Assembly (NCBI GenBank): GCA_026386845.1
Contig: JAPLMW010000094.1
Coordinates: 1-53,371, forward strand
Direction of reading: 5' to 3'
Origin: Phycisphaerae bacterium
GTDB taxonomy: Bacteria; Planctomycetota; Phycisphaerae; Sedimentisphaerales; UBA12454
DNA length: 53,371 bases
Shown piece after piece: positions 271-45,697 of this stretch. Made by a program: the position numbers and the translations under genes. The notes under the pieces were generated by a model, which made no database searches, had not been told where the DNA came from, and worked only from the letters and a program-made list of their open reading frames with translations. Numbering within the stretch: position 1 is the stretch's first letter; every line of letters begins with the position of its first letter.

Positions 271-276
271 CAATGA

Positions 277-317
277 GTTCGACCCTTCGACTATGCTCAG
301 GGCAGACAGGCTCACCA
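277..317. repeat. Dispersed 40-bp repeat, copy 1 (intergenic)
   Basis: The segment starts GTTCGACCCTTCGAC and ends GGCAGACAGGCTCACCA. It closely matches copies at 8314-8355 and 45478-45517. It fills nearly the whole gap between gspG and the next pseudopilin gene and ends 4 bases before that gene's first ATG, so no Shine-Dalgarno sequence is visible there. Short repeats of this kind (TTCGAC...GCTCAGGGCAGGC...CTCACC) are, to my recollection, common dispersed elements in some bacterial and environmental genomes. Its mobilising enzyme is not identifiable here. Confidence 0.85.
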
Positions 318-321
318 TAAA

Positions 322-897
322 ATGAACCGTTATTGTTCAAAACATTTGCCGATGTGCAGTGCCGCCAGAAGCGGGGCAATACTGGCGGAAATTATTATGG
401 TACTTTTCATTGTCGCGATGTTTACGATGATGACGATGATGAATTTATCAGATGTGCTGAGCAGAAACAGCTTCAAAGGCAAAGCGTATGACCTTGTAAA
501 GCTTTGTCAAATGGCGGCGACAAGCGCAGCCGAGACCGGCAGAAGATATGAAATAATTATAGACTTTGCACAGAATTCATATACGCTGCGGGAAATTATG
601 ACCGGTCTTGTAGCTGTCGAAGATATAGAAGAACAGGAAATTATCGAAACAGGACAATTCAGCGATCGCTTTCAGTTGTCTTATGTGATGTTTGACGACG
701 GCGAATGGACAAATGAGGCGCCGGCCTTGTTCAGAGTCGGTAAAACCGGCTGGCAGTATGGCGGGAAAATCGTTATTACCGACGAAAATGGGAAAGTATA
801 TTCAATCGTAATCAACAGGTTGAGTCGAATGATAAATATTCTTGATGGCGATGCGGTAATTCTTGTACCAAGAAGCGAAGATGAAATGGGTTTTTAA
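322..897 (+). CDS. GspH-like minor pseudopilin
   Basis: A 191-residue protein with a type IV prepilin N-terminus: a short basic leader ending in ARSG, then AILAE, with the conserved glutamate at mature position 5 and a hydrophobic helix to about residue 42. Prepilin peptidase should cut after the glycine at about residue 18. The rest is a soluble domain with no further motif I recognise. Position after gspG and before three other prepilin-type genes suggests GspH, a minor pseudopilin near the pilus tip. The first ATG (322) has no clear ribosome binding site because a dispersed repeat lies directly upstream; ATG 352 is an alternative that leaves an 8-residue leader. The end overlaps the next gene by 17 bases. 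Confidence 0.8.
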   Translation: MNRYCSKHLPMCSAARSGAILAEIIMVLFIVAMFTMMTMMNLSDVLSRNSFKGKAYDLVKLCQMAATSAAETGRRYEIIIDFAQNSYTLREIMTGLVAVEDIEEQEIIETGQFSDRFQLSYVMFDDGEWTNEAPALFRVGKTGWQYGGKIVITDENGKVYSIVINRLSRMINILDGDAVILVPRSEDEMGF

Positions 898-7953: not shown

Positions 7954-9801
7954 ATGGGTCAGATAAAAGTACTTGACCAGAATATGGTAAATATGATTGC
8001 TGCCGGCGAGGTAATCGAAAGACCCGCCAGCGTAGTCAAAGAGCTTGTCGAAAACAGCATTGACGCAGGCGCGACCGAGATAAATATCTATATAGAAGAA
8101 GGGGGAATAAAACTCATCCGCGTAGTCGATAACGGCTGCGGAATGGACAATGCCGACCTTGCACTTGCGTTTGAGCCGCACGCGACAAGTAAACTTAAAA
8201 CCATCGCCGATTTACTGAACATCTCCACTATGGGCTTTCGCGGCGAGGCCCTTGCGAGCATTGCCGCTGTGGCCAAGGTTGCCATTGTCAGCAGATGTGC
8301 GGACACAATTGTGGATTCGACCCATTCGGCAAGCTCAGGGCAGGCAGGCTCACCACAAGCAGGAGGCAAAATAGAAATCGACTGCGGCGTGAAAGATGAT
8401 ATTCGGCCGTGCAGCGCCGGTCTCGGCACAGCCGTTGAGGTGCGAAATCTCTTTTATAAACTGCCTGCGAGGAAAAAATTTCTGCGAACGGCGAATACCG
8501 AAATGACTCATATCATCGAGCAGTTTACAAGAGTTGCTCTCGCTCATACCGATATTTCGATGGCTTTGTTTCATAATGACAGGGAGCTTTACCGTTTGTC
8601 CGCCGATTCTGGGATAAGACAGCGAATCGCGAAATTGTTTTCTGCCGAGCTTGCCGAGGCTCTGCTCGAATTGCAAAGCACCGAACGAAATCTAAAGCTG
8701 GCCGCACTGCTTTGCAAGCCTGAAAACGGCAGGGCAAATACTAAATTTCAGTATTTTTTCCTGAACGGCAGATATATCCGCGATAAATTTCTCTCTGCCG
8801 CTGTCAGGGAGGCGTATCGAGGACTAATTGAGCCGGATAAACACCCGGTAGTTTTTCTTTTCCTGCAAATGCCGCCTCAAAACTTTGATGTAAACGTTCA
8901 TCCGACAAAAACAGAAGTCAGGTTCGACGATTCCAATCTCGTATATTCGCAGATTCTGGCTCTTATACGCGAAAAACTGCTGTCAATGGACCTTGATGTG
9001 CAGGCAAAACTGCCAAAGAGCGGCCAAATGCCGGTGTCTGGGGAAAGCCAGGAGATAAAACAGTCCATTGCCGGCGCAATGGCGGAGTTTTTCAGTCAAA
9101 ACAGGCAGGGCGAGGTTCCGCAGAGACATTTTGATTTTTCAAAAATCGCGCAAAAAAGTGATTCGGTTGTAGCTGAGCAAAGAGATAATTTTTACAATCA
9201 GCCTGTTTCGCAGGTAAATGAAATTCCGCAGTATCTTCAGATTCACGACAGTTACATAATAGCTCAGACTGAAGACGGATTTTTAATCATAGACCAGCAT
9301 GCCCTGCACGAGAGAATAATATATGAAGACCTGTGCAGACGCCTTGCATCCGGCAGCGGCGCCAAACTCGAATCTCAGAAACTGCTCATACCGGAAAGTT
9401 TTGAGCTGACCGCTGCGCAGTCTCAGATACTTGAAGCAAACAAAGATTTGCTTCAGCGTCTCGGTATTGAGCTTGAACCCTTTGGGCCCGGCATCTGGGC
9501 GGTGCAGGCGTTTCCCAGTCTATTGGGCAGTGTCAAGCCGGTTGAGTTTATTATAGATATGCTGGATGTGCTGACCGACAGCGTAGGCAAAATAGATTCC
9601 GAAAGACTTCTGCATAAAATTCTTGATTTGGCGGCGTGTAAGGCGGCTGTAAAAGCAGGACAGAAACTGAACCCCACCGAAGTCAGTAAACTATTGACCG
9701 ATAAAAACACTGTTGAACGCGTCAGCCGATGTCCACATGGAAGACCGACCGCAATAAAATTCAGCCTTGCAGAATTAGAAAAGCAATTCAAAAGAACCTG
9801 A
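7954..9801 (+). CDS. mutL: DNA mismatch repair protein MutL (endonuclease type)
   Basis: 615 residues. N-terminal GHKL ATPase: ELVENSIDAGA, VDNGCGM and GFRGEALASIAAV; then the linker; then the dimerisation and nuclease domain. DQHALHERIIYE near residue 447 fits the DQHA(X)2E(X)4E metal-binding motif of nicking MutL proteins, and ACKAAVKAG and CPHGRP at the end complete the site. It therefore probably nicks DNA itself, as in bacteria without MutH. Residues 121-134 (DSTHSASSGQAGSP) are encoded by a dispersed DNA repeat inserted in frame in a loop of the ATPase domain, between the SRCAD strand and KIEID. The start has no strong ribosome binding site; coupling to gpmI is likely. Confidence 0.95.
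   Translation: MGQIKVLDQNMVNMIAAGEVIERPASVVKELVENSIDAGATEINIYIEEGGIKLIRVVDNGCGMDNADLALAFEPHATSKLKTIADLLNISTMGFRGEALASIAAVAKVAIVSRCADTIVDSTHSASSGQAGSPQAGGKIEIDCGVKDDIRPCSAGLGTAVEVRNLFYKLPARKKFLRTANTEMTHIIEQFTRVALAHTDISMALFHNDRELYRLSADSGIRQRIAKLFSAELAEALLELQSTERNLKLAALLCKPENGRANTKFQYFFLNGRYIRDKFLSAAVREAYRGLIEPDKHPVVFLFLQMPPQNFDVNVHPTKTEVRFDDSNLVYSQILALIREKLLSMDLDVQAKLPKSGQMPVSGESQEIKQSIAGAMAEFFSQNRQGEVPQRHFDFSKIAQKSDSVVAEQRDNFYNQPVSQVNEIPQYLQIHDSYIIAQTEDGFLIIDQHALHERIIYEDLCRRLASGSGAKLESQKLLIPESFELTAAQSQILEANKDLLQRLGIELEPFGPGIWAVQAFPSLLGSVKPVEFIIDMLDVLTDSVGKIDSERLLHKILDLAACKAAVKAGQKLNPTEVSKLLTDKNTVERVSRCPHGRPTAIKFSLAELEKQFKRT
8314..8355. repeat. Dispersed 40-bp repeat, copy 2 (inside mutL)
   Basis: GATTCGACCCATTCGGCAAG ... 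GGGCAGGCAGGCTCACCA. It is nearly identical to 45478-45517 and similar to 277-317. It lies wholly in the mutL reading frame and adds 14 codons without a stop. The frame used here differs by one base from that used by the copy in the zf-TFIIB gene. Confidence 0.9.
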
Positions 9802-45238: not shown

Positions 45239-45697
45239 ATGGATTGTCCCATTTGCAAAAGTGCGATGATTGTGCTGGAACTTGAGCAGGTCGAAGTCGA
45301 CCACTGCACGGCCTGCGGCGGCATCTGGCTCGATGCGGGCGAACTTGAATTGCTGTTTAATGATGCACGGCAGGCCAAACAGCTTGTAAGCTCTTTCCAT
45401 CACGCCCCTGGCGTTAAGGAAAAAGTTCGCTCCTGCCCGATATGTCTGAAAAAAATGCAGAAAATTCATGCCGGCGGGTTCGACCCATTCGGCAAGCTCA
45501 GGGCAGGCAAACTCACCGCTGGCAGCGAAGATGAGCCTGTTATTATTGACCGCTGCCCGAAAGGGCACGGCCTGTGGTTTGACAGGGGAGAACTGCCGCA
45601 GGTTCTTGCAAAGGGCAGTTTTGATAAGGAGCGAAAGGTAATAAAACTCCTGTCGCAAATATTTGGCGGCGGAAGCGAGGTGAAAAATGGCGGTTGA
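45239..45697 (+). CDS. Double zf-TFIIB zinc-ribbon protein
   Basis: 152 residues with two zinc-ribbon modules. First: CPICKSAMIVLEL ... HCTACGGIWLDAGELELLF. Second: CPICLKKMQKIH ... DRCPKGHGLWFDRGELPQVL, in which the last CxxC is CPKGH, so one ligand is changed. Residues 80-93 (GFDPFGKLRAGKLTAG region) come from a dispersed DNA repeat inserted in frame into the turn of the second ribbon. Proteins of this family are of unknown function, sometimes in transcription-related or membrane-linked contexts. The gene starts 1 base after the CorA-like gene and overlaps galM by 11 bases. Confidence 0.83.
   Translation: MDCPICKSAMIVLELEQVEVDHCTACGGIWLDAGELELLFNDARQAKQLVSSFHHAPGVKEKVRSCPICLKKMQKIHAGGFDPFGKLRAGKLTAGSEDEPVIIDRCPKGHGLWFDRGELPQVLAKGSFDKERKVIKLLSQIFGGGSEVKNGG
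45478..45517. repeat. Dispersed 40-bp repeat, copy 3 (inside the zf-TFIIB gene)
   Basis: GTTCGACCCATTCGGCAAGC ... GGGCAGGCAAACTCACC. Almost identical to the mutL copy. Read here as FDPFGKLRAGKLT, a frame one base different from that in mutL. Confidence 0.9.

Follow-up and report, generated by a model that had tools for sequence, protein, structure and literature searches.

A self-nesting 24-nucleotide repeat unit inserted in frame in mutL and elsewhere in a Phycisphaerae genome

The closest known kind of repeat to the one analysed here comprises the intragenic REPs and the Rickettsia palindromic elements (RPEs). REPs lying within genes, uvrA, recB and polymerase genes among them, are described in a study that also treats the Rickettsia elements RPE-4 and RPE-6 and leaves open the relation to untagged repeats (PMC3733652). 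Here we examine a repeat within the mutL gene of a Phycisphaerae bacterium, on a stretch of 53,371 nucleotides (the window; contig JAPLMW010000094.1) belonging to a 2.4-Mb draft genome of 96 contigs. About a hundred 24-nt insertions are present in this genome; many of them lie within essential genes, which stay unbroken.

The mutL gene lies at 7954..9798 on the forward strand. Its frame is open through the repeat, as had been predicted, and family scoring identifies its product as a full-length MutL, the MutL family model matching it over nearly the entire length. When the protein was aligned with those of 29 relatives, nearly all of the latter ran directly from an SR(T) turn into the next conserved stretch and thus lacked the repeat, whereas the window's MutL has 16 residues extra. 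Alignment to solved MutL structures places the insert within the ATPase domain, where it falls in a gapped region of the alignment between the GFRGEA motif and the GT motif. The original prediction described an insert of 40 bp and 14 codons; comparison with relatives instead gives 48 nt, or 16 codons, in frame at 8313..8360 (forward strand, ends ±1 nt), made up of two nested 24-nt units. The outer unit, GGATTCGAC...AGGCTCACCACAAGC, is split by an inner unit, CCATTCGGCAAGCTCAGGGCAGGC, at 8322..8345, which sits directly before the NN-GCTCA of the outer one.

A genome of the same family (G001, locus L036) carries only 8 extra residues in MutL at the identical codon position, corresponding to GTGGATTCGACAGGCTCACCACTGGCAGG, the outer 24-nt unit without the inner one. 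The window's mutL DNA is this unit, slightly diverged, with the 24 nt of CCATTCGGCAAGCTCAGGGCAGGC added in its middle. Because G001 has exactly one unit at the same codon, the insert in the window is a second 24-nt unit inside a first, a doll nested in two steps, with G001 representing the one-unit state of the site. In the MutL tree the window's genome (G000) groups with G004 and G001 groups with G012, neither partner having the insert; this topology needs at least two changes, and the outer unit would therefore have been gained twice at one site or precisely lost several times. The loop itself is evidently tolerant, since G056 and G022 hold other inserts there, that of G056 looking like a variant form of the 24-nt unit. 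The insert in mutL of G022 (L051) is unrelated and in frame, and consists of GGACAGAG-type tandem repeats.

Two further copies lie in the window, and all three (275-324, 8313-8362 and 45476-45525) form a single direct-repeat family, in agreement with the original prediction. One is a double unit of 48 nt at 45476..45523 (forward strand, inner unit 45485-45508), in frame in a gene for a Zn_ribbon_TFIIB protein whose 16 additional codons are missing from four relatives. The other is a double unit at 275..322 (forward strand, inner unit of 24 nt at 284-307), in the gap from a gene end at about 270 to an ATG at 322. That the repeat is dispersed holds genome-wide, and its copies far exceed the three first named: across the whole genome the pattern TTCGAC-N0-14-GCTCA has 131 matches against 15 for the reversed pattern. 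With the loop restricted to N2-3 the counts are 96 and 1, an excess far above chance. Elsewhere in the genome a Cas1 gene (L110:1150-2094) contains two separate in-frame units, and the sigma-54 factor gene rpoN (L076:905-2425) carries a unit, also in frame, close to the end of the core-binding domain.

At least 81 units were catalogued by the strict core from stretches around the matches. Aligned, they read nnn-TTCGACnnGCTCA-nnn-CAGGC: TTCGAC and GCTCA, separated by a short loop, stand between two short complementary arms, and a tail of CAGGC or variants of it follows. The ends of the unit are placed to within about one base. Because the search fixed the core TTCGAC-N2/3-GCTCA, this part is invariant by design; the arms lie outside the search pattern. 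All three arm positions are paired in 51 of 81 units, against 10.8 in shuffled sets (maximum 20), and the pairs observed include TCC/GGA, TGG/CCA, CCC/GGG, TAG/CTA, CAC/GTG, TCT/AGA and GAC/GTC, among others. Units pre-selected for two pairs out of three show 46 double-sided arm changes and almost no G-T pairs; the near-absence of G-T pairs hints that the arms pair as DNA. Folded alone, the hairpin reaches -0.5 to -1.8 kcal/mol, weak values that do not improve on those of shuffled sequences.

Fifteen further genes carry in-frame inserts relative to their orthologues, most of them of 24 or 48 nt, as judged from segments of 16 further unit-bearing proteins sized against up to four relatives (G004, G006, G001 and G009). 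An excess of 24 nt is found in valS (valine-tRNA ligase), a TrhP-like gene, rdgB, an alkaline phosphatase gene and L107, and one of 48 nt in the zf-TFIIB gene, dtd (D-aminoacyl-tRNA deacylase), a UVR-motif gene, L011, a GH2 gene and ddl (D-Ala-D-Ala ligase). The excess is about 24 nt in murF and the topoisomerase VI B gene (topoVIB), where the alignment is doubtful, 63 nt in gyrA (gyrase A) and about 96 nt in holA (DNA polymerase III delta); in a TrpG-like protein the unit lies in the variable N-terminus and gives no insert size. One locus, L123, was considered as LpxD and rejected; it matches TrhP-type U32 proteins. At 14 gene sites there is no multi-base target duplication; unit and flank frequently end in the same base, which is possibly an alignment ambiguity.

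Genes keep only multiples of three, and non-coding DNA was therefore used as a control for size. In five of five pairs of occupied and empty non-coding hairpins within the same genome the length difference is exactly 24 nt, with no more than one mismatch; the empty copies here are members of a hairpin family ending in CTAA, and the stem filter applied favours central insertions. Since the non-coding copies are also exactly 24 nt longer, this length is intrinsic to the element, and there is no need for the proposal that the repeat is selected for open frames. Mobility, which had earlier been an inference, gains support from such occupied and empty site pairs, in genes as well as in non-coding DNA.

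The nesting seen in mutL recurs. Within the window's genome 25 nested arrangements were listed, 17 of them spaced at 24 or 25 nt (25 being readable as 24 where the outer loop is 3 nt) and the others deeper dolls or overlaps. Arrangements of this kind indicate a single fixed point of entry for new units, TTCGAC^NN-GCTCA in the centre of an older one, which gives repeats built like Russian dolls. We scanned 84,980 genomes for a unit directly after TTCGRC and obtained at least 115 stretches, where base counts give an estimated chance expectation of about 0.02 exact matches. Among the matches listed, records with a nested unit come from Planctomycetota, Verrucomicrobia, Lentisphaeria, Kiritimatiellia, Chloroflexi, several Patescibacteria, Desulfobacterales, Nitrospira, Nitrosomonadales, Acidobacteria, Bacteroidetes, Elusimicrobia, Fibrobacteres, Babeliales, Sumerlaeota and FCPU426, and the Lentisphaeria and Sumerlaeota records contain dolls several levels deep. 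Also among the matches listed, the outer GCTCA, which was outside the pattern, is at its predicted position in 64 of 83, and pairing of the outer arms spans the inner unit (143 against 89, with a maximum of 110 in 2000 shuffles). Nesting of the same form is present in at least 12 bacterial phyla. Of the nested units that have sufficient flank, half fall in long open frames, compared with 64% of random positions (again among the matches listed), a mild avoidance only.

The unit has a patchy distribution within the phylum, with most genomes close to background and a few rich (281, 120, 96, 64 and 50 matches). The count is 3-28 in relatives of the window's genome and 93 in G034. Such copy numbers look like the result of bursts. 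One 48-nt query found no match in phage and plasmid collections, and 2.9 million viral contigs contained two stretches, so no vehicle is seen.

We consider that the unit is a non-autonomous mobile micro-element of 24 nt, with co-varying arms and a capacity for self-nesting, which would be moved by an enzyme acting in trans and whose copies are tolerated in genes; we give this reading a probability of roughly 0.7. The putative enzyme would recognise the unit in the form of a single-stranded hairpin and insert it without clear target duplication, preferring the tips of hairpins. Each event adds 24 nt, to coding or non-coding DNA alike. Primary gene sites show no hairpin (mean stem 2.14, compared with 2.20 elsewhere), and the preference for tips accordingly rests on self-nesting and on the five non-coding hairpins. 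The persistence of copies in genes such as mutL, gyrA, valS, holA and rpoN would follow from a unit length divisible by three, from the absence of stops in five of the six frames and from the position of the surviving insertions in tolerant loops. More tentatively, and with the odds somewhat against so full a statement, the element may be among the smallest known, placed by a putative undescribed trans-acting enzyme as a single-stranded hairpin into the centre of its own copies, across a dozen or more phyla, and a source of hidden 8-codon insertions in core proteins.

A Y1 REP-associated tyrosine transposase (RAYT) might instead mobilise the unit, which would then be part of an ordinary REP family with some copies landing in genes. 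There are five Y1_Tnp matches in the window's genome, one of the corresponding genes (L093) has a unit about 26 nt upstream of its frame, and intragenic REPs in DNA-repair genes have been published (PMC3733652). The unit nevertheless has no GTAG or CGTC tag, and two inverted copies flank none of the five Y1 genes, that of L093 with its upstream unit being the one partial case. Across genomes the number of Y1 genes does not follow copy number (281 matches with two Y1 genes, 35 with none, background with nine), and only 3 of 30 Y1 loci from these genomes have anything unit-like within 1.5 kb. Two of the five Y1 genes (L093 and L095) are, moreover, flanked by hairpins of a different family, whose G+C-rich stems, variable and 19-22 nt long, are followed by CTAA(A/C); members occur at L006, L016, L023, L067, L085, L099 and other loci. 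A 7-nt inverted repeat lies upstream of 41 of 186 GGCTAA sites, as against 0-3 for control words. These CTAA hairpins look like the true REPs of this genome, and the 24-nt unit inserts into their loops. An ordinary REP origin for the unit itself is thus unlikely, though it is the best placed of the alternatives. A sister unit, CTTCGCCAAGGCTACG, with pairing arms, was also noted in CTAA hairpin loops (L093:1823-1872 and L077), and more than one such micro-unit may exist.

Selection for function, in which the inserts spread because they serve as Ser/Gly/Pro-rich linkers or regulatory hairpins, would fit the peptide DSTHSASSGQAGSPQAG encoded in the mutL frame, which has the appearance of a flexible loop, and the presence of other inserts in the mutL loop of other genomes. 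It accounts poorly for gene copies that use all five stop-free frames, in both orientations, and yield unrelated peptides (the antisense frame reading TGA was not seen among unit copies in genes), for orthologues that manage without the inserts, and for non-coding copies that are equally regular; we regard it as highly improbable. Slightly less probable again is an artefact of assembly, binning or sequencing, or simple slippage. The source genomes are mostly metagenome-assembled drafts, but the same architecture recurs in independent projects and phyla, diverged in-frame copies are found in conserved genes whose orthologous sites are empty, and the left-left-right-right order of nested units with pairing arms is unlike a product of tandem slippage.

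If a trans-mobilised, self-nesting micro-element is the correct reading, a single element accounts for many odd 8- and 16-residue insertions in the conserved proteins of uncultured bacteria, and the dolls record the order of insertion and so provide a relative clock. Self-targeting insertion of a fixed 24 nt would further imply a specific, unnamed enzyme, which could be sought by comparing unit-rich with unit-poor relatives.

We found no description of the 24-nt unit in open-access text, where the core, on both strands, led to unrelated subjects, probably primer sequences. It shares with PARCELs (PMC2996958) a palindromic character, a coding location and a horizontal distribution, but these are tandem protein domains of 25 residues, whereas the unit is an 8-residue insert in unrelated proteins. 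The RAYT-REP systems (Nunvar et al., 2010; PMC2817692) likewise consist of small hairpin units with no gene of their own that are presumably moved in trans; in the present case RAYT-type genes are neither flanked by the 24-nt unit nor correlated with its copy number. The GTAG/CGTC REPs (Di Nocera et al., 2013; PMC3733652) are similarly short, palindromic, high in copy and patchy across phyla, with some members inside genes, including those of replication and repair, and sub-families with compensating stem changes. The unit differs from them in that it is without a tag, has co-varying arms around an invariant core in place of a plain stem-loop, comes in an exact quantum of 24 nt and nests centrally in itself, where these REPs form head-to-head dimers. 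Finally, the Rickettsia palindromic elements (RPE-1, RPE-4 and RPE-6) resemble it in their frame-keeping insertion into housekeeping genes and their absence from orthologues, and the unit is set apart from them, by description, in its fixed length of 24 nt, its self-nesting and its occurrence in many phyla outside the Rickettsiales.
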